Source of the DNA: an uncultured Desulfovibrio sp. | GTDB lineage: Bacteria > Desulfobacterota > Desulfovibrionia > Desulfovibrionales > Desulfovibrionaceae | Assembly: GCA_913060505.1 (NCBI GenBank) | Contig: CAJXRQ010000008.1 | Coordinates: 1-64,000, forward strand | Reading direction: 5' to 3' | Length of the DNA stretch: 64,000 bases | In this document: one piece after another, positions 14,944 through 29,703 of the stretch | Numbering within the stretch: the stretch's first letter is position 1 | How the letters are laid out: every line of letters begins with the position of its first letter | Notes under the pieces: model-generated | What the model was told of the DNA's origin: nothing | Seen by the model: the letters and a program-made list of their open reading frames with translations, nothing else | The model's database searches: none | Made by a program: the position numbers and the translations under genes

Positions 14944-14980
14944 CGGGCCGTGCCGGATTTCCGGCACGGCCCGTTTTCTT
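14944..14980. terminator. Terminator between the hybrid kinase and the first chemoreceptor
   Basis: A perfect 13-bp stem (14944-14956 with 14961-14973, loop ATTT) followed by TTTTCTT on the plus strand. It ends the kinase transcript. The minus-strand chemoreceptor gene stops within the T-tract, so the stem could also stall that transcript, though no T-run is present in that direction. Confidence 0.88.
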
Positions 14981-16976
14981 AGAATGTTTCAAAGTGTTCG
15001 TCCGAATCGGACATGTCCAGCGTCAGTCCTTCCGCGGCCTTTTGCGGGTGTGGAATTTGCGAATAAGGAGTGCCCTGTTCAAGGGCTTTCGGGGCAGATT
15101 GTTTGTGCTGCTTTGGGTGGCTGGAATGTATTCTGGCCGTTGTCCCGTTCTCTCTGACCCTGAAGAACGAAATGGTCTGCTGCAATTGCGTGGCTTCGTC
15201 GGCGAGGTTATGGGATGTGGATGCCATTTCTTCCGATGCCGCAGCGTTTTGCTGTACCACGAGATCCAGTTGCTGCAACGCGGTGTTGATCTGTTCGGCC
15301 CCGGCGTTCTGTTCATTGGAGGCCACCGAGATCTCCCGAACCAGCTCGGCTGTGCGCCGGATGTCCGGGATGATGTCGGTAAGCATGGTTCCTGCCTTTT
15401 CCGCAACTTCGACACTTGAAGAAGACAATTCACTGATTTCTGCTGCTGCACTGCCGGAGCGTTCCGCCAGTTTGCGCACTTCCGCAGCGACAACGGCGAA
15501 GCCTTTACCGTGCTCTCCGGCACGGGCGGCCTCGATGGCCGCGTTCAGGGCCAGCAGGTTTGTCTGGCGGGCAATCTCTTCAATGATGGATATTTTTTCG
15601 GCGATCTGCTTCATCGCGTTGACGGTTTCAAGAACGGCTTTCCCGCCTTCTTCCGCGCTGCCCGAAGTGCTCTCGGCAATGGCTTCGGTGTCACTGGCGT
15701 TTTTGGCGTTCTGGCGGATATTGGCCGCCATTTCCTCCATGGATGAGGATACTTCCTCAAGGGACGAGGCCTGTTCGGTCGCTCCCTGCGAAAGGGATCC
15801 CGCCGTGCTTGAAAGCTGCTCGCTACCTGCGGCCACGGTAGAACTGCCGTCCATGACCTGCGTGACCACGGAAGTAAGGCGTTCAGCCATGGTGTTCAAG
15901 GCGCTGACCATGGTGCCGATTTCATCCTTGCGTTTGATATCCACACGGCCTGTGTAGTCGCCTTCGGCCGCGTGGTTGAGGAAAGATACGATGGAGAAGA
16001 TGGGGGTGACGATGGTTTTCGTCACATACAGCCACATGAGTGTCAGGATCAGGGCCAGTGAGGCTGCCATGACGATACCGATCTGTATAAGCAGGGTGTG
16101 GACCGGTGCCATGACTTCTTCTGCCTGCATGAGTCCTATGAAACGCCAGCCAAGTTCCGGGGAGGTGTAAACCTGTGCGAGATGGTCAATCCCGTCAATT
16201 TCTACCTGCGCCTGCCCTGAACCTAGATCGAAAAGTTTTTTGTAGACCTTTCTGCGCATGTCAGAAAGATTTCTGAAATTCATCGCTTCTTCATGCGGGT
16301 TGGCAATAACCGTTCCGTCCTGCTGCACGAGGAACACATAGCCGGTTTTGCCCATTTTGAGTGTGCCCATGAGGTCTGCAAGCCCTTTGAGCGTCAGGTC
16401 GAGTCCCGCGACAGCCGCAACCTGGCCGTTGCGCGTATAGGCTTTGGATATGCTGATCATCGCGTCGCCTGTGGTTCCTTTGTAGGCTGCGGAAATTTGC
16501 GGCTTGGATGTGTCCTTGAGGGCTATGATCCACCATGGGCGTTCACGTGGATTGTAATTCTGGAGCGTTTCATCCGTATCGTCGACATAACCACCCCCGT
16601 GTGTGGCGATGAAGACGCTGTCGTAGTCCGGGTGGGCCGATTTGATCCATCGAAGCATTGGCTTCATGGCCTGACAATATGCATTATCCGGGTTCGGGGT
16701 GGTACGTTTTGCTTCCAGTCCGGTATAGCTGCTCACATTTTCATCAATCTGCGCGTTCAACGGGCTTTTGGTCAGCATATCCACACTTTTTCCGGCTTCG
16801 GTCAGCATGATGGTGATGGCCTTGTTCACCTGCTTGATTTCATTATGGCTTGAGCGGGAGTATTCCGAAATGGATTGATCACTCACATTTACATAAATAA
16901 TGGAATAAATGATAACGAACGGAACGGCTATGAGTAGGCTTAACCCGACTAGCAATTTGAACTTGATGGAATTCAT
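14979..16976 (-). CDS. Methyl-accepting chemotaxis protein (Cache-HAMP-MA)
   Basis: 665-residue transmembrane chemoreceptor. TM1 is about residues 8-28, a periplasmic dCache-type ligand domain follows (with the NPRERPWW and [16 protein letters not shown] signatures), TM2 is near residues 295-315, then HAMP ([27 protein letters not shown]) and the cytoplasmic signalling domain with hairpin tip [21 protein letters not shown]. After a flexible linker of about 60 residues the protein ends HFETF, matching the form of a CheR/CheB tethering pentapeptide. The ligand is unknown. Its signalling domain is nearly identical to that of the next chemoreceptor, while the sensor domains differ. Confidence 0.93.
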
Positions 16977-17350: not shown

Positions 17351-19357
17351 TTAGAATTTTTCGAAGTCGTCATCCGATCCTGTCATGTCCAGAGCCAGTC
17401 CTCCGCCGGAGTCCTCTGCCTCCCCTACGGCTGGGGGTGGCGTCGGCTTGGCCTGAATCCTGGGCTTGGGCGCGGCCGCTTTGCGGGAAGCCGGCCTGTT
17501 CATTCTTGGCGGCGCTGCATGCATGCTTCCATCGATCTTGAAGAAAGATATAGTCTGCTGCAACTGGCTGGCCTGTCCTGCAAGGTCCGTGGAAGTGGAA
17601 GCCATTTCTTCGGATGCCGAGGCATTTTGCTGCACCACGTTGTCCAACTGCTGGAGGGCCTGGTTGATCTGGTCGGCCCCGGTATTCTGTTCATTGGACG
17701 CCATCGAGATTTCCTGAATCAGCTCGGCGGTGCGCTTGATGTCCGGTACAATGTCGGCGAGCATGGTTCCCGCCTTTTCCGCGACTTCCACACTTGAGGA
17801 TGACAGCTCGCTGATTTCCGCTGCGGCGTTGCCGGAACGTTCCGCCAGCTTGCGCACTTCCGCGGCGACAACGGCGAATCCCTTGCCGTGTTCGCCTGCG
17901 CGTGCGGCCTCAATGGCCGCATTCAGCGCCAAAAGGTTTGTCTGGCGCGCGATTTCCTCAATAATGGATATTTTCTCGGCGATTTGCTTCATGGCCGTGA
18001 CAGTCTGAGCCACTGCGGCGCCGCCTTCCTCGGTGCTCACGGACGTCTTGCCTGCAAGCGCCTCGGTGTCGTGCGCGTTTTTCGCATTCTGGCTGATGTT
18101 GGAGGCCATTTCTTCCATGGAAGAAGAAACTTCTTCAAGCGAAGAAGCCTGCTCCGTGGCTCCCTGCGCAAGGGCTTCGGATGTGGCCGAAAGTTCCTCA
18201 CTGCCTGCGGCAACCTTGGAACTGCCGTCAATGACCTGTTGCACAACGTGCACAAGCTTGCTGGCCATGGTGTTCAAGGCTTCTACCATGGTGCCGATTT
18301 CATCCTTGCGTTCGATGTCCACCCTGTGGGTGTAGTCGCCCTTGGCCGCACGATTCAGGAATTTCACGATGGCCCGGATGGGCGTGACCAGCATTTTTTC
18401 GATATACAGCCAAATTGCGACAATAACCACGCCGAGGCAGAGGATTATCGCAATGGAAAAGGCCCAGAGGTTTTCATATACGGGAGCCATGGCTTCAGCC
18501 CGTTCCATGACGCCGAATATCTTCCATCCCAATTCCGGGGATGTATAGACTACACCGAGCATTTCCGTATTGTTCAGGTCTACGTCGAGCTCGCCGGAAC
18601 CAATGGAAAACATTTCGGAGTATGCAGAATCCAGATCCGAAACATTCTTGAAGTTGTTGTCAGGGTTTTTGGGGTCCGCCAGCACGACGCCGTCATCCTG
18701 CACCAGAATAACATAGCCGGTTTCGCCCAGCTTGATGTTTTCGGTGATGTCCGTGAGGTTTTTGAGCGAGATGTCTACGCCCACGACACCGACTGTTTCA
18801 CCGTCACGCGCGGTTGGGTGCGTGACGCTTGCCACGGCTTCGCCGGTCGTGGACAGGTACGCCTTGGACAGTGAAGCCTTGTTGCCGTTCTGGATGGCGA
18901 CCGTGTACCATGGACGCTTGCGAGGGTCGTAACCGGCAGGCATGTTGCTGTCTGTAGCCGAAGTGACGAAGTTACCCTTGATGCTTCCAATGAATACTTC
19001 GACATAACTCGGATGTGTATTAGACATCCTTTTGAATTCCCCTACAATTTTCTCTCCCCTGAGGTCGCCGGGAACCGTGACCGCAGGCTGTTTTGATGTT
19101 GTCGTAACAAACGTCGTCTTGATTTCATCGATATGCTGAACATCCGGTTGTTGCGCAAGAAAGCTCACATTCATCTTGGATTCTTCGATGAAAAGCGTGA
19201 TGGAAGTGTTCACCTGCGTCAGCTGGGATGCAATGGATTCATTGTTGGCATCGAAAGACGAATGGTAGGTATTGATGGATACGATGGTGAATAAAACCAA
19301 GCCGATAATCACAAGGGCTGTCGTAAAGCCAAGGATTATTTTGGTTTTTATGTTCAT
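17351..19357 (-). CDS. Methyl-accepting chemotaxis protein (Cache-HAMP-MA), paralogue
   Basis: 668-residue transmembrane chemoreceptor with the same plan as the neighbour at 14979: TM1 near residues 7-29, periplasmic dCache domain ([30 protein letters not shown]), TM2, HAMP ([27 protein letters not shown]), signalling domain with the same hairpin tip, a proline/alanine-rich linker and the C-terminal pentapeptide DFEKF. ATG 19357 is preferred (GGGGGAG about 9 bases upstream, giving the usual short MNIKTK start); ATG 19363 is nearly as good. A TATAAT on the minus strand at 19445-19440 is a likely -10 element. The ligand is unknown. Confidence 0.93.
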
Positions 19358-19503
19358 TCTCATGGGCTCCCCCTCGTCAGTTATTATAAGTGCGGTCTTT
19401 CCAATAAGAAAATTATGCCTCCTCATTTGGAACTAATCCATTATATAAATATGTCATATGTGTGACGCGTTGTTGCAAGCCTTGTCGGATATGAGTAATA
19501 CCC

Positions 19504-22869: not shown

Positions 22870-23618
22870 CCGTAAGCCTTGGCCCCGGAGATGAAAGCCT
22901 GTTGACACCGGCGGCAGCAGCCGCCCTTGCCGGAGCTGACGCCATCGTGGGGTACAAGGGATATATTGATTTGGTGCCGCCCGGGCTGCTGGAGGGAAAA
23001 GAGGTCTTTTCCACGGGGATGATGGGCGAGGTGGAGCGTGTGAACCGGGCTGTGGATCTTGCGGAGCAGGGACGGCGTACGGCCGTTGTTTGCAGTGGGG
23101 ATGCGGGAATATACGCCATGGCCGGACTCATGCTGGAAACGCTGGAGGCCCGGGGGCTTCTGGATACCGTGCCGTTTGAAGTCATTCCGGGCGTAGCCGC
23201 TTTCAATGCCGCTGCCGCCTTGCTGGGCGCACCGCTTATGCATGACTTTTGTTCCATCAGCCTCAGCGATCTGCTGACGCCGTGGGATTTGATCCGTAAA
23301 CGACTGCGGCTTGCTGCCGAGGGCGATTTTGTGATTGCCCTGTATAATCCACGCTCCAGGCGGCGAAGTGGGCATTTGGCCGAAGCCTTGGGTATCATTG
23401 GCGAGCAACGAAGCCCACAAACGCCTGTGGGCGTTGTGAATCGTGCCTGGCGCGAGGGGCAACAGGTTCACATCTGCACGCTTGAAGATATGGAACCGGA
23501 TATCGTGGATATGCAAACCATTGTACTTGTAGGCAATTCTGCAACACGCAAGGCAGGTGGTTTTCTGCTCACCCCAAGGGGGTATCATACCAAGTATGCG
23601 GTAGGGACAACGGCGTGA
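22860..23618 (+). CDS. cobJ: Precorrin-3B / cobalt-precorrin-3 C17-methyltransferase
   Basis: 252-residue SAM-dependent tetrapyrrole methylase (CobJ/CbiH). It starts MLVAVSLGPGDESLLTPAAAAALAGADAIVGY, contains the VVCSGDAGIYAMAG loop that binds S-adenosylmethionine, and ends with the family segment QTIVLVGNSATRKAGGFLLTPRGY. It methylates C17 with ring contraction in corrin synthesis; in an anaerobe the substrate is the cobalt form (CbiH role). It immediately follows cbiG, whose product acts two steps later. Confidence 0.95.
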   Translation: MLVAVSLGPGDESLLTPAAAAALAGADAIVGYKGYIDLVPPGLLEGKEVFSTGMMGEVERVNRAVDLAEQGRRTAVVCSGDAGIYAMAGLMLETLEARGLLDTVPFEVIPGVAAFNAAAALLGAPLMHDFCSISLSDLLTPWDLIRKRLRLAAEGDFVIALYNPRSRRRSGHLAEALGIIGEQRSPQTPVGVVNRAWREGQQVHICTLEDMEPDIVDMQTIVLVGNSATRKAGGFLLTPRGYHTKYAVGTTA

Positions 23619-23634
23619 TTATTGGAACTATTTT

Positions 23635-23655
23635 CTTGCAAAAGCGAGAGTTTTT
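23635..23655 (+). terminator. Possible short terminator after cobJ
   Basis: CTTGC at 23635-23639 pairs with GCGAG at 23644-23648 around an AAAA loop, followed after AG by TTTTT. The short stem makes it weak. Confidence 0.4.
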
Positions 23656-23692
23656 CGGGTAAAAAGCAGTGTTTTCTCTAGCCGATACCGGC

Positions 23693-23721
23693 TTGACACT
23701 GTGAGATATGTAATTTATCCC
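23693..23721 (+). promoter_or_regulatory. Candidate sigma-70 promoter of the cytochrome c3 gene
   Basis: A perfect TTGACA at 23693-23698 lies 74 bases before the cytochrome c3 start. The best -10 at the right distance (16-17 bases) is TTATCC or TATCCC at 23715-23721, which is poor, so an activator or another -10 choice is possible. Confidence 0.4.
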
Positions 23722-23772
23722 GCAGGGTAGAGAGTGTGACGTATATCCAATGCAACAGGAGGATCGAGGAGA

Positions 23773-24162
23773 ATGAAAAAAGTACTTTTGATCAGCCTTG
23801 TGGCTGCGGCTCTGGTCTGCGCTTTTGCGCTGCCCAACCTGTCCGCTGCCACGAAAGCGCCTGGTGACATGGTGCTCAAGGCTCCCGAAGGCATGAAGGC
23901 GAAGAAATCGCCGGTAGCTTTCCCGCATGGCAAGCATGAAACCATGTTTAAGGACTGTAAGGTCTGTCACCACCAGTACAGTGGTTCCGGCGACGTGAAG
24001 GGCTGCGCTGCTGCTGGTTGCCATGACAAGGCAAGCAAGAAAGAAAAGATGGCCTTCTATAAGGCCTTCCATAGCAAGGACAAGAGATCCTGCGTGGGTT
24101 GTCACAAAGCTGAAAAGAAAGGACCCAAGTCCTGCAAGCAGTGTCACCCGAAGAAAAAGTAG
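23773..24162 (+). CDS. Tetraheme cytochrome c3 (class III)
   Basis: 129-residue periplasmic cytochrome. A signal peptide (MKKVLLISLVAAALVCAFALPNLSAA) is followed by four heme-binding motifs: CKVCH, CAAAGCH (the four-residue-spaced form), CVGCH and CKQCH, with the extra axial histidines in FPHGKHE, CHHQY and AFHSK. It acts as the electron carrier between periplasmic hydrogenases or formate dehydrogenases and membrane complexes. The fourth site uses the short CXXCH spacing, as in some but not all c3 proteins. It has its own upstream TTGACA and downstream terminator, so it is monocistronic and probably strongly expressed. Confidence 0.96.
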   Translation: MKKVLLISLVAAALVCAFALPNLSAATKAPGDMVLKAPEGMKAKKSPVAFPHGKHETMFKDCKVCHHQYSGSGDVKGCAAAGCHDKASKKEKMAFYKAFHSKDKRSCVGCHKAEKKGPKSCKQCHPKKK

Positions 24163-24181
24163 CCGCTTAGGATACGTCAGA

Positions 24182-24208
24182 GGGGGCTGCCATGCGGCCC
24201 CTTTTTTC
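24182..24208 (+). terminator. Terminator after cytochrome c3
   Basis: GGGGCT can pair with GGCCCC (one G-U pair, about 6 bp) across TGCCATGC, followed by TTTTTTCTC and a further T-run. Confidence 0.75.
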
Positions 24209-24242
24209 TCTTTTTTTATATCCTTCCACGGAGGTGGAGAGC

Positions 24243-26018
24243 ATGACCCCGGTTCCCCCGTCTGATTCTCCTGAAGATATCCTCGAAATGTCTGATTTGG
24301 CTGAGGATTCCCGCTCAATGAACGGGGATGGTCTCGATAATGACGCCATTGATGCCGATTTCGAGCAAGAGCTTGAAGATCTTTTTTCCGAGGAGTTGGA
24401 CGACGGCCACGGCAGCGATGCCGAGGACGCCGAACCTGTTTTGCTTGATGAGATCGTGGAAGAAGCTGCAGCGCTGGCAGATGACGGCAGTGCCGATGAG
24501 GCCGAAGAAACCGCCGTTGAAGCCGAAGACACTCTCGAACTGACCGATGTTGCCGAAGATGAATCGGATGAAGTCGATGCCTTGCTGCTTGACGAAATCA
24601 TGGAAGAGACTGGCGAGGAGCCGGATGAAACCGTGACGGAAGTATCTGATGGGGCTGACGACCTTGACGCATTGCTGCTGGACGAGATTGTGGAAGAAGC
24701 CCCGGCGGAAGATGATATCCCGCTTGAGCTGACGGACGTTGCTGAAGAACCGGAAGCTGCCGATGACGTTTTGTCGCTTGACGATGTCGTCGGGGAGGAG
24801 CCTCTCGAGCTGACCGATGTTGCCGAGAGTGCGGACGATGCCATGGTTCTTGACGACGTTCTGGAAGAAGCCGGTGCGGTGGAAGAAACCATCGTTCTCG
24901 ACGATATGGTTGCCGAGGACACTCCCGCGGAAGAGGCTGACGCCGACGAATCTGAGGAAGCGTTGATTCTTGACGATGTGCTTGAAGAAGCCGCTCCCGG
25001 GGCGGAAGAAAAAATTTCTGAAGAGTCCGACGGGCTGGGCGATATTGACGTGGACGCTCTGCTTTCGGAAGGCCAGGACGAAGATGTCGCGGTCTCCGAT
25101 GAAGACGTTGCCGAATTGGACGCCTTGCTGGACGAAGTTGCCGAAACAACCGAGGCTGCCGGGGAAGAAGGGGTGGATGAAGAGGCCGTGATCGACCTTG
25201 ATGATCTGCTGGACGAAGGGCCTGCCGAGGTTGAGCCGGAAGCCGTCGTTGCGGAGGAAGAGCCGGAGTTGGCGCCGGAACCGGAAGCTGTTTCCCGGCC
25301 CGAAGATGTTCCTGAGCCTGAAGTTGAGCCTGAGCCGGAAGTAGTTTCCGAAGCTGAACCGGAAGCCGAAGCTGAGGTTGAACCGGAGGTTGTTCCCGGG
25401 TCTGAACCTGAAGTCGAGCCGTCCGTCGAGGATGTTGCTTCTGTAGAAGAAACCGAAGGCGATCCGCTGGAAACCTTTGTTGCCGAAGTGTCGAATGAGG
25501 ACGGGCCGGAATCCGAACCGGATACCGCGTTTGGCGAGGACGGCATTGCTGCTGCGCAAGAGGCTGTTGTTGAGGACATCCCGGATGTGGAGGACGATAT
25601 GGACTCCCTGTTGGAGGATGTCGATGTGGACGTCTCCGACATTTTCCCCGATGAAGAGTTGGAGGTCGATGCCGAAGAGGTTGTCGTCCTGTTTGATGAC
25701 GATGACCTCGGGCTTGAAGCTGGCGTGGATGTTTCCGAAGACGTGAGTGTGGATGCGCTCATGGAAGACGTTGAGCGGGAAAGCGTGGGCGTGGACGATC
25801 TGGTTTCACGCATGGATTCGCTGGAAGAACGTTTTGCCCAGCTGGGTGGCGATACGGAAGCCGAAGAAGAGTTGGAAAAGCGTATCGAGGTTATGGAAGC
25901 CAAGCTGGACGAAGTGGAAGAGCTTGTTCGGCGCGAGGTTGAACGCCTTGTGCCTGCGGAAGCCGCACGTATTATTCGTGAGGAAATCGCAGCACTTGCC
26001 CGGGAGCTTGATTCCTGA
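24243..26018 (+). CDS. Highly acidic repeat protein with a PopZ-like C-terminal helix region
   Basis: 591-residue protein not assigned to a named family. Residues about 30-500 are low-complexity and dominated by Glu, Asp, Ala and Val. Two short motifs recur: roughly nine variants of LLLDEIVEEA (for example LLLDEIMEET, MVLDDVLEEA, LILDDVLEEA) and three copies of LELTDVAE, then a Pro-Glu rich stretch. The last 80 residues look structured: a heptad-patterned helix (LEERFAQL, LEKRIEVMEAKLDEVEELV) and the end VERLVPAEAARIIREEIAALARE, which resembles the C-terminal assembly helices of PopZ-type polar organising proteins. There is no signal peptide. ATG 24243 follows GGAGGTGGAG. Scaffold function is inference. 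Confidence 0.75.
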   Translation: MTPVPPSDSPEDILEMSDLAEDSRSMNGDGLDNDAIDADFEQELEDLFSEELDDGHGSDAEDAEPVLLDEIVEEAAALADDGSADEAEETAVEAEDTLELTDVAEDESDEVDALLLDEIMEETGEEPDETVTEVSDGADDLDALLLDEIVEEAPAEDDIPLELTDVAEEPEAADDVLSLDDVVGEEPLELTDVAESADDAMVLDDVLEEAGAVEETIVLDDMVAEDTPAEEADADESEEALILDDVLEEAAPGAEEKISEESDGLGDIDVDALLSEGQDEDVAVSDEDVAELDALLDEVAETTEAAGEEGVDEEAVIDLDDLLDEGPAEVEPEAVVAEEEPELAPEPEAVSRPEDVPEPEVEPEPEVVSEAEPEAEAEVEPEVVPGSEPEVEPSVEDVASVEETEGDPLETFVAEVSNEDGPESEPDTAFGEDGIAAAQEAVVEDIPDVEDDMDSLLEDVDVDVSDIFPDEELEVDAEEVVVLFDDDDLGLEAGVDVSEDVSVDALMEDVERESVGVDDLVSRMDSLEERFAQLGGDTEAEEELEKRIEVMEAKLDEVEELVRREVERLVPAEAARIIREEIAALARELDS

Positions 26019-26046
26019 TCCGATTCTATACCGAAGACGATTTTCA

Positions 26047-26076
26047 GGGTTCGCACTTGTGTGCGGACCCTTTTTT
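26047..26076 (+). terminator. Terminator after the acidic repeat gene
   Basis: A 10-bp stem (26047-26056 with 26061-26070, one G-U pair, loop TTGT) followed by six T residues. Confidence 0.9.
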
Positions 26077-26126
26077 CTTGTATGCGATAAGGGCGTTTTT
26101 TTGCCAATCATGCAAGGGAGGGCTTT

Positions 26127-27383
26127 GTGCGCAGGTCGTATTTGGTATTGTTCGTGCTGGCGTTGGTTCTTGTTGCGGAAAATGCCCGGGCTACGGATCT
26201 GGGTTCCCATTATCGCAACCTGTATACCTCGGTGGTTACACTGGTGACCGAGGGGCGCACCATTGACAGGAAACGAACCGGTTTTACTGCTGCCGAGGGC
26301 CTTGGCTCCGGTGTGTTGATTGATGGTGACGGTTTGATCCTCACGGCCAGTCATGTGGTGCAGGTGGCGGATGTCGTCGGTGTTGTGTTTGCCGGAGGAG
26401 AGAGTGTTCCGGCAACAGTGGTTTCCACCATGCCCCAGGCTGACCTGGCCCTCGTTCGGGCCGATTCCGTACCTTCCGGCATCAAGTCCGTGCAGCTGGC
26501 GGATTCATCCAGTGTGGAAGCTGGAAATGAAATTTTTGTCATTGGCGCTCCATACGGTCTTCATTCCACCATTACATCAGGTATCGTCAGTGCCCGATAT
26601 GCTCCGGGCGCAAATCCTCGTTTCTGGCTGGCGGAGATGATCCAGATCGATGCTGCCGTGAACCGGGGCAGCTCCGGAGGGCCGGTGTTTGACGCAAAAG
26701 GCCGGTGCATCGGTATTGTCAGTCATCTCAAAACCACGACTGGCGGTTTTGAAGGACACGCCTTTGCGGTGACCACGAATACGGCCAAGAAACGCCTGCT
26801 CGGCAAACCGGGAATTTGGAGCGGCATGAGTGGAAAAATGTTGACCGAGGATTTGGCGTGGGCCTTCAATTTGCCTGAGGCTCAGGGTGGTTTTCTCGTG
26901 GAGCGGATTGCTTCCGGTTCTCTTGGTTCCTCTCTGGGGTTGATAGCCGGGACCATTCCAGCCCGGATTCGGGGCAGGGATTATTTGCTGGGGGGCGATG
27001 TCATCCTGCGGATCAACGGTATTCCTGTCTGGGCGCTCAAGGATCGTTATGACGAGTTGTTGCAGTCGTTGAAGGCGAACGCTGACGTGACAGTAGCGGT
27101 CATGCGCGGCGGTATGGTCATGGATTTGGTGGGGCCGTTGCAGTTATCGTCCTGTTTACATGTTTTCATCATCCACGCTGACTACACCACGGGTGATAAT
27201 GCCTACGGTGAGCGCGAACATGACGTAACCGGTCATGCACTCCAGTGTGGTCAGCAGTTTGGCTCCGGCCGAGAGCGGGGTGATGTCCCCGAATCCCAGC
27301 GTGGTCATGGTAATGACGGTAAAATACAGCGCGTCCACAAGTACCCCGGATTTCTGGGCAAAAGGGAATTGGATTGCCGATAG
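26127..27383 (+). CDS. Trypsin-like serine protease with PDZ domain (HtrA-like), with antisense-overlapping tail
   Basis: 418 residues as an open frame from GTG 26127 (AAGGGAGGG upstream). A signal peptide leads into a trypsin-fold domain with catalytic triad His76 (LTASHVVQ), Asp106 (ADLALV) and Ser183 (RGSSGGPVF), followed by a PDZ domain around residues 230-330 (LLGGDVILRINGIPVW). It should act in the periplasm as a quality-control or signalling protease. The family-like sequence ends near residue 338. The remaining 80 residues are low in hydrophobicity, look unlike any protease, and from residue 344 are read from DNA antisense to the 3' end of the channel gene. A lost stop codon near 27141 would explain this. 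Confidence 0.85.
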   Translation: MRRSYLVLFVLALVLVAENARATDLGSHYRNLYTSVVTLVTEGRTIDRKRTGFTAAEGLGSGVLIDGDGLILTASHVVQVADVVGVVFAGGESVPATVVSTMPQADLALVRADSVPSGIKSVQLADSSSVEAGNEIFVIGAPYGLHSTITSGIVSARYAPGANPRFWLAEMIQIDAAVNRGSSGGPVFDAKGRCIGIVSHLKTTTGGFEGHAFAVTTNTAKKRLLGKPGIWSGMSGKMLTEDLAWAFNLPEAQGGFLVERIASGSLGSSLGLIAGTIPARIRGRDYLLGGDVILRINGIPVWALKDRYDELLQSLKANADVTVAVMRGGMVMDLVGPLQLSSCLHVFIIHADYTTGDNAYGEREHDVTGHALQCGQQFGSGRERGDVPESQRGHGNDGKIQRVHKYPGFLGKRELDCR

Positions 27384-27932: not shown

Positions 27933-28158
27933 GTCGGTCTCCGTATCAGTCTATCTGTTTTTTAGCTCTTCGGAAGCAGGGCGAAACAGCATGGGAAAGT
28001 ATGAATGAGACCCCGGCTTTGGGCAAGGAGAATAGGTGTATGGCCCCGTCAGTCAAAGCTTGACTAAACCTTGACAATGTCATAACTCACGTACTCTTTG
28101 CCCGCGCTGGACGGTGCTTTTGCGCGTGGAAAATGAAGAGAATTCCGGGAGATGTGCA

Positions 28159-29703
28159 TTGTTTGACAGCCTGCAAGACAGATTAGGTGACGCGTTCAAG
28201 AAGTTTCGGGGACAGTCCAGCCTTGATGAAAACAATATCAAGGAAGGTCTGCGCGAGGTGCGTCTTGCCTTGCTTGAAGCGGATGTGAACTTCAAGGTGG
28301 TCAAGGATTTCGTGGAATCAATCCGCGAACGGGCCTTGGGGGAAGATGTTACCAAGGGGCTTGATCCTGGCCAACAGGTTGTCAAAATCGTTCATGAAGG
28401 ATTGATCGAGCTGCTCGGTGGTGAACAAACCGGGCTGGATCTCAAGCCTTCGCCGCTCAAGGTCATGATGGTCGGCTTGCAGGGCTCGGGTAAGACCACG
28501 TCTTCGGGCAAAATTTCGCTTTTCCTGCGCAAGAACGAGAACCGCAAGCCCTACCTTGTCCCGGCTGACGTGTACCGCCCGGCAGCTATCGAACAGTTGC
28601 AGACTCTGGGTCGTCAACTGGACGTGCCGGTATACCCGTCGTCTCCGGACATGGACCCGGTGGAAATATGCAGGGACGCGCTGGTCAAGGCGGAAGAAGC
28701 CGGGTGCGACCTGATCATGTTCGATACCGCTGGCCGGCTGCATATTGACGAGCCGCTCATGGAAGAGCTGGGCAACATCAAGCAGAGCTGCCGCCCGGAC
28801 GAAATACTTTTTGTGGCCGATGCCATGACCGGTCAGGACGCCGTGACCGTGGCCGGGACATTTGACCAGCGTCTGGACATCACCGGTGTCGTGCTGACCA
28901 AGATGGACGGTGATGCCCGCGGCGGTGCGGCCCTGTCCATCAAGTCCGTGACCGGCAAGTCCGTCAAGTTCGTGGGTGTGGGCGAAAAGCTCTCGGACCT
29001 CGAACTGTTCCATCCGGACCGCATTGCTTCGCGGATTCTGGGTATGGGCGATATGCTTACCCTCATCGAAAAGGCCCAGACCACCATTGATGAGGACGAG
29101 GCCAAAGGGCTGGCCGAGAAAATGGCCAAAGCCCAGTTCGACCTTGAGGACTTCCGCTCCCAGATGCGGAAGATGAAGAAGCTCGGTTCGCTGGAAGGAC
29201 TTTTGAAGTTGATTCCCGGCATGGGGGGAATCATGAAGCAGTTGGGCGATGCCCAGTTGCCCGAGGATGAGATGAAACGCACCGAAGCGATCATCAATTC
29301 CATGACCATGAAAGAACGTCGCAACCCGAAATTGATCAATGCCAGCCGAAAGGAACGCATTGCCAAGGGATCGGGGAACGATGTGGCTGCCGTCAACGCC
29401 TTGCTCAAGAATTTCAAGCAGATGAGCAAGATGATGTCCAAGATGATGGGCGGCGGCAAAGGCAAGAAAGGAAAATTTCCCAAGTTCCCCAAAGGAATGC
29501 CTGCGCTCGGTGAGGGCGGCATGCCTGATATGGGGGCTGGAATGCCGGGTATGCCCGGTATGCCCGGTATGCCGGGGATGCCAGGAATGCCGGGCATGGA
29601 AGGAATGGAAGATGCCGGCCAGCGCCGGACCATTTCCAAGAAAACGCTGAAAGAGCGCAAGAAAAAGAAGCTTAAGAAAAAGCTGCGCAAGAAAAAGCGT
29701 TAA
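28159..29703 (+). CDS. ffh: Signal recognition particle protein Ffh
   Basis: 514-residue SRP54-type GTPase that binds signal sequences on the ribosome and targets them to FtsY. The NG domain has GLQGSGKTT, DTAGRLHID and TKMDGDARGG, and the methionine-rich M domain contains the RNA-binding SRKERIAKGSG loop. I propose TTG 28159: it gives the canonical MFDSLQDRLGDAFKK start and GGGAG lies 7 bases upstream, whereas the in-frame ATG-type start at 28114 adds 15 unrelated residues. Unusual is the C-terminal tail with about six consecutive MPG triplets followed by a very basic Lys/Arg end. First gene of a translation operon. Confidence 0.96.
   Translation: MFDSLQDRLGDAFKKFRGQSSLDENNIKEGLREVRLALLEADVNFKVVKDFVESIRERALGEDVTKGLDPGQQVVKIVHEGLIELLGGEQTGLDLKPSPLKVMMVGLQGSGKTTSSGKISLFLRKNENRKPYLVPADVYRPAAIEQLQTLGRQLDVPVYPSSPDMDPVEICRDALVKAEEAGCDLIMFDTAGRLHIDEPLMEELGNIKQSCRPDEILFVADAMTGQDAVTVAGTFDQRLDITGVVLTKMDGDARGGAALSIKSVTGKSVKFVGVGEKLSDLELFHPDRIASRILGMGDMLTLIEKAQTTIDEDEAKGLAEKMAKAQFDLEDFRSQMRKMKKLGSLEGLLKLIPGMGGIMKQLGDAQLPEDEMKRTEAIINSMTMKERRNPKLINASRKERIAKGSGNDVAAVNALLKNFKQMSKMMSKMMGGGKGKKGKFPKFPKGMPALGEGGMPDMGAGMPGMPGMPGMPGMPGMPGMEGMEDAGQRRTISKKTLKERKKKKLKKKLRKKKR

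Follow-up and report, generated by a model that had tools for sequence, protein, structure and literature searches.

The gene analysed here lies on the forward strand of a 64,000-nt stretch of DNA from an uncultured Desulfovibrio sp. (contig CAJXRQ010000008.1), referred to below as the window, where it occupies positions 24243 to 26018 (P0001); all features of the gene described below lie on the same strand. The open frame starts with an ATG at 24243, preceded by a GGAGG ribosome-binding site, closes with a stop codon at 26016-26018 and encodes a protein of 591 residues that has homologues across the order. Aspartate and glutamate make up 40% and proline 6.4% of residues 1-500, a segment containing only three basic residues (K/R, at positions 24, 257 and 352), and the net charge amounts to -216 for the whole protein and -196 for residues 1-495. 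Since no signal peptide is apparent by eye, the protein should be cytoplasmic. None of the curated families matched it above the cut-off: scans of the whole protein and its tail against Pfam and NCBIfam, and of the tail against PHROGs, returned coiled-coil, low-complexity or otherwise weak matches, below the cut-off where one exists. No literature was found on DVU3172, which we take to be the D. vulgaris locus tag of the homologous gene, and the titles and opening lines of abstracts retrieved for cytochrome c3 together with DVU3171 or a terminator contain nothing on the acidic-protein gene.

The surroundings of the gene are largely constant on its upstream side. In 50 of 52 loci it adjoins a cytochrome c3 gene; the two remaining loci start at the end of a contig. 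A CobJ-like gene lies nearby in 44 of the 52, frequently accompanied farther upstream by CbiG-like and hemL-like genes (some genomes were sampled twice, and neighbours were named by reading their translations). Within the interval from the cytochrome c3 stop to the start codon of the acidic-protein gene (24163-24243), a terminator scan identified a strong intrinsic terminator, consisting of a hairpin and a T-run, at 24179-24205, 37 nt 5' of the start codon; another lies 3' of the gene at 26046-26071. An upstream terminator is likewise found in 41 of 45 distinct homologue upstream sequences (five loci in which no start could be recognised and two duplicates were excluded, and the count carries no shuffle control), being located 23-39 nt before the start codon in 38 of them; the one counted at locus L094, 90 nt before the start codon, is unconvincing. 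Because the terminator sits just before the start codon, little room is left for a separate promoter, and no sigma-70-like site was detected in 23600-26200, where shuffled sequences give 0.8 on average. This arrangement suggests that the gene may be expressed through partial read-through from the cytochrome c3 gene.

The downstream genes vary among the 11 loci read; a UbiE-like gene is present in six of them and does not adjoin the acidic-protein gene in the window. At three loci (L080, L094 and L099), the homologue and the UbiE-like gene are separated by a short conserved ORF (QVTKEIVVKFIEVGRISPSNF-like), which is not found next to the window gene. No polarity or segregation genes were noticed adjoining the acidic-protein gene. 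Elsewhere in the window, two adjacent chemoreceptor-like genes on the reverse strand (14979-16976 and 17351-19426) encode proteins ending in DEHFETF and DDDFEKF, which resemble the C-terminal pentapeptide known to tether CheR in other bacteria, and a gene at 28114-29703, by reading an Ffh-like signal-recognition-particle GTPase, contains a repeated PGM stretch near the C-terminus of its product.

Within one order of sulfate reducers, the acidic protein occurs in most of the members sampled, and it is, by the searches made, uncharacterised. Searching with its last 112 residues recovered it from its own genome, from all 35 same-genus relatives and from 3 of 24 other members of the order (39 of 60 genomes in total), and a profile of the last 100 residues (alignment A3, 31 sequences) matched 175 of 199 genomes of the order, representing 37 of its 43 genera. 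Among the matches listed for this profile, four genomes have two matching places and the other matching genomes one. In the sample of the phylum, the A3 profile matched 11 of 297 genomes, all within the same family-level group, and the profile of the smaller alignment A1 matched 8 of 247. The named homologue loci include Pseudodesulfovibrio, Salidesulfovibrio, Humidesulfovibrio, Desulfonatronum, Desulfonatronospira and one Desulfohalobiaceae bacterium.

Comparison of the homologues indicates that the tail and an acidic element near the N-terminus are conserved, the middle being variable. The N-terminal motif EDILEMSDLAED (residues 11-22, 24273-24308) recurs in several homologue branches as DDILELTDIVEEG, EEIIELTDIVEE or DEIIELTEIVEEG; many same-genus homologues lack a motif of this type and carry instead a DVNDVLN-like segment followed by DADFEQELEDLF. 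It precedes a helix predicted by AlphaFold2 at residues 33-52 (24339-24398), which covers most of DADFEQELEDLFSEELDD (residues 37-54). Outside the tail, a 15-sequence full-length alignment shows no variation at residues E43, F48 and L456, the last of which lies within MDSLL (residues 453-457, 25599-25613), whose L457 is conserved in at least 90% of the sequences. The tail itself carries the signature VPAEAARIIREEI (residues 570-582, 25950-25988), which follows the pattern P-x-x-AA-x-x-x-REEI: all 15 tails of alignment A1, a set gathered through plain protein search, share its P, A, A, R, E, E and I without exception, and the E that follows P-x is almost invariant. Two homologues found through the N-terminal motif (L063 and L064) keep the tail as KVPKEAAKVIREEI and KVPAAAAQVIREEI. 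The still stricter tail identity of alignment A3 (the window protein plus 30 loci) is built in and carries no weight here, since the search pattern that retrieved 30 of its 31 sequences itself required EAA[RK][IV][IV]REE. In the genus designated g15 (L056-L060), the tail proline is replaced and AAARILREEI is retained; the homologues of this genus are rich in proline and alanine and contain repeated DIDSLLAAA-type units. At another locus, L033 (genome G023), the C-terminal matches of the homologue are split over two frames, a division that may reflect either a genuine frameshift or an error in sequencing.

AlphaFold2, used here for monomer predictions only, places a helical region at residues 503-590 (25749-26012). 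When the C-terminal 100 residues were modelled separately, two helices were obtained at 503-535 and 538-590 (12-44 and 47-99 of the modelled piece), with a mean pLDDT of 87 and block values of 95-98 from residue 542 on, the second helix running unbroken through the conserved tail proline. The full-length model (mean pLDDT 50.5) has C-terminal helices at 503-512, 517-533 and 538-590 and the N-terminal helix at 33-52, with block values of 63-79 over residues 31-50; residues 53-500 are mostly below 50, with short helices at 70-78, 204-207 and 286-306. The gene is thus conserved, order-wide and almost always present in a single place, and its product combines a very acidic middle that has no confident AlphaFold2 structure with a conserved acidic-hydrophobic helix towards the N-terminus and a strongly conserved C-terminal helix. 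The original prediction, which described a long acidic disordered region in this frame joined to C-terminal helices ending in VPAEAARIIREEIAALARELDS, is borne out on both counts by the composition of residues 1-500, the low pLDDT of the middle and the C-terminus as found.

The acidic middle also contains the short repeats that had been reported for it. LELTDVAE occurs in exactly three copies, as predicted, at residues 98, 161 and 188 (24534-24557, 24723-24746 and 24804-24827), far above chance (for LELT[DE], mean 0.01 and maximum 1 in 2000 shuffles). About nine LLLDEIVEEA-like motifs had been claimed; the strict pattern LD[DE][IVMF][VLMA]xE finds seven (shuffle mean 0.05, maximum 2) and a looser LDE-type pattern marks nine sites. 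The copies located by motif scan include VLLDEIVEEA (24438-24467), LSLDDVVGEE (24771-24800), MVLDDVLEEA (24843-24872), IVLDDMVAED (24891-24920) and LILDDVLEEA (24963-24992). An xDALL motif overlaps an LDE-type motif in VDALLLDEIMEET (24573-24611, with DEVDALL starting at 24567), motifs overlap likewise in LDALLLDEIVEEA (24663-24701), and further copies of the former kind are VDALL (25050-25064) and LDALL (25116-25130). These patterns were picked after the sequence had been seen; independently of them, 19 6-mers are repeated in residues 1-495, whereas 1000 shuffles gave 0.5 on average and never more than 5. Codon comparison, which covered the LELTDVAE copies, VDALLLDEIMEET and LDALLLDEIVEEA, showed that copies of identical peptide differ in codon usage to a varying degree: the first LELTDVAE differs from the second in 5 of 8 codons and from the third in 2 of 8, and the remaining pair differs in 5 of 8. 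Tandem Repeats Finder reported a single short array, which lies in the Pro-Glu part, away from the LELTDVAE and LDE-type motifs.

Among 56 homologues (seven of them without a recognised start or out of frame, and the window protein not included), the class LxL[TDES][DE][VIML][VAL] is enriched in 20 and the class [LIVMF][DE][ADSE]L[LFM] in 29, at a criterion of no more than 3 of 300 shuffles. When ELT[DE][VIM][AV]E[DE] was sought as DNA in 41 genomes, it was found at eight places in seven genomes, all eight within the acidic-protein gene. The enlarged acidic repeat region of the original prediction therefore stands as to the repeats, which are real, but not as a general property of the homologues, given that the two motif classes are enriched in just these fractions of them. 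Because the repeats are not order-wide, the enlargement is a lineage-specific elaboration of a conserved plan and not the part that defines the protein family.

The same prediction likened the protein to PopZ. According to the available part of PMC9926476, PopZ has a short helix at its N-terminus that binds clients, followed by a disordered region that is acidic and rich in proline and by three self-assembling helices at the C-terminus, the C-terminal region being modelled as a parallel three-stranded bundle, and the PopZ chain in the PDB (6xry) spans residues 1-133, with the tail absent. Set beside that description, the AlphaFold2 models uphold the proposed plan of an acidic linker plus C-terminal helices as a layout. 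The profile match proposed as its check failed: DUF2497 (PF10691) has no match in the protein's own genome, the control having fired in Caulobacter, and among 60 genomes (own included) it gave 14 weak matches at E<=10, of which 13 lie outside the acidic-protein gene and the remaining one, a 68-residue frame in genome G040, is not placeable against it. In the reciprocal direction, the tail profile did not find popZ in three PopZ-bearing records, and none of 47 pattern matches to PopZ relatives in viral contigs was confirmed.

Direct alignment of profiles was more favourable. With hhalign, the tail aligns gaplessly with PopZ over 31-32 columns at both extreme C-termini, using a narrow PopZ profile that comprises four plasmid-borne PopZ proteins and a supplementary fifth row, with three of the five rows from Rhizobiaceae. 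The probability is 33-35% for the tail alone, 43% after the supplementary row is dropped and 46% and 52% with a broader tail alignment, but just 19% and 23% for the whole last 100 residues. No control reached the score of the real tail (22.6-23.6): column shuffles preserving hydrophobicity fell short in all 300 and all 500 trials (best 23.3, close to the real 23.6), the best of 289 windows drawn from 25 neighbouring families scored 15.8 and the best of 27 windows from chemoreceptor helices 12.9, and the reversed tail scored 9.3. The family and chemoreceptor controls are generous, as the chemoreceptor alignment comprises two sequences and the neighbouring families are, by reading, mostly globular. 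The tail-to-tail match is no more than suggestive; in view of the generous controls and the narrow profile, our claim is limited to likeness of design with PopZ.

Taken together, we favour the reading that the protein is a cytoplasmic, self-associating acidic scaffold working like PopZ, a tentative proposal to which we give slightly less than an even chance. The C-terminal helix would form parallel oligomers, trimers or more, and the charged middle would maintain the assembly in an open, soluble state. The repeated LELTDVAE, LxLDDVVEE and xDALL motifs, together with the N-terminal helix, would offer many-fold docking to client proteins, such multiple docking could produce a condensate-like hub, probably at the cell pole, and additional motif copies in some lineages would raise client valency. 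Against this proposal, a long charged helix need be nothing more than a plain coiled coil, and the weak Pfam and PDB matches are to leucine zippers. The protein might accordingly be an ordinary coiled-coil adaptor that carries an acidic spacer and would form defined dimers or trimers, with neither condensates nor a polar location; the long continuous C-terminal helix of the AlphaFold2 model and the restriction of even weak similarity to leucine zippers are what one would expect of it. We nevertheless regard this as unlikely, as the last ~20 residues are conserved more strictly than a generic coiled coil needs. In the opposite direction, a true but very diverged PopZ orthologue, sharing an ancestor with alphaproteobacterial PopZ, would account for the gapless, same-register alignment of the tails above all controls, and the EVLELSD of Sphingomonas PopZ resembles ILELTD of the acidic protein. 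The three Rhizobiaceae PopZ proteins read do not show this N-terminal resemblance, however, just ~31 residues can be aligned, the DUF2497 and reciprocal profile searches fail and the phylum sample holds no match beyond the family-level group, all of which makes orthology improbable.

Two further explanations take the motifs or the neighbouring genes as their starting point. EIDALL is described as the CheY-binding motif of FliM in the available part of PMC9126983, and the acidic protein contains four [LIV]DALL copies (shuffle mean 0.02, maximum 1). FliM begins with MSKILEQDEVDALL in the four same-genus relatives read, of six fetched, and all seven letters of DEVDALL are common to these FliM proteins and one copy in the acidic protein. 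The resemblance of xDALL to a CheY-binding peptide is a lead towards a hub for CheY-like response-regulator domains, in which xDALL would mimic the FliM peptide and gather or buffer many receiver-domain proteins; the broader motif class being enriched in 29 homologues, including the Pro-rich ones with DIDSLLAAA, fits such a role. On the other hand, short acidic-hydrophobic motifs arise easily at this content of D and E, the pattern was chosen post hoc and 27 of the 56 homologues are not enriched for it, so that we rate the idea as quite unlikely. A FliM match is present in 39 of 41 genomes; G037, which is 100% complete, has the acidic-protein gene and no FliM match, and the protein's own genome (81% complete) also has none, which makes a purely flagellar role unlikely and would at least untie such a hub from flagella. 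The protein could alternatively assist the cytochrome c3 or tetrapyrrole gene products encoded next to it, acting for instance as an acidic chaperone whose expression is linked to theirs by read-through, as the constancy of the cytochrome c3 and CobJ-like neighbours, the terminator before the start codon and the lack of a sigma-70-like site would allow. Cytochrome c3 is periplasmic, however, the acidic protein should remain in the cytoplasm, the downstream genes are variable and conserved gene order alone does not prove joint function; we see little likelihood in this role.

To our knowledge, no pole organiser is known for the Desulfovibrio group; searches for a Desulfovibrio PopZ or polar scaffold found none in the titles and opening lines of abstracts, and those on PopZ distribution yielded nothing relevant among the matches listed. 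Proteins with a polar location do occur in Desulfovibrio: according to the available part of PMC6345978, MrpORP-GFP is located mainly at one pole. An order-wide, syntenic protein of PopZ-like design is a specific candidate for a pole organiser in this group, and its lineage-specific motif arrays would form a natural series showing how scaffold behaviour depends on the number of motifs. In its most far-reaching form, which we consider very improbable, the protein would be the order's own polar condensate hub, a PopZ-like system outside Alphaproteobacteria, with a variable client code of FliM-like xDALL and LxLDDV motifs recruiting receiver-domain and other proteins, and with its level set at a small, constant ratio to that of cytochrome c3 through read-through of the conserved terminator.

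Three known systems provide the closest comparisons. With the leucine-zipper coiled coils (Pfam CLZ and GCN4 constructs), the acidic protein shares a heptad-like charged helix, yet the matches are weak or below the curated cut-off and fall mainly on the helix before the P-x-EAARIIREEI tail. With the N-terminal EIDALL peptide of FliM, it shares the xDALL motifs, which are repeated here, one of them identical over DEVDALL to FliM of relatives, but it has no FliM domain, and its xDALL motifs lie in a disordered acidic chain. With PopZ, as far as the available description goes, it shares the succession of a short N-terminal helix, an acidic proline-containing disordered middle and C-terminal helices, here predicted. 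It differs from PopZ in having no DUF2497 match and in its N-terminal helix at 33-52, which is conserved and predicted but unlike in sequence, the SMEEILASIRRI-type helix of PopZ not being seen. Its tail is predicted as one long helix that continues unbroken at the proline, it carries repeated internal motifs, it was found here in one order of sulfate reducers, and it is about three times longer than Caulobacter PopZ, which has 177 residues. The acidic protein is PopZ-like in design and is best filed outside the PopZ family.
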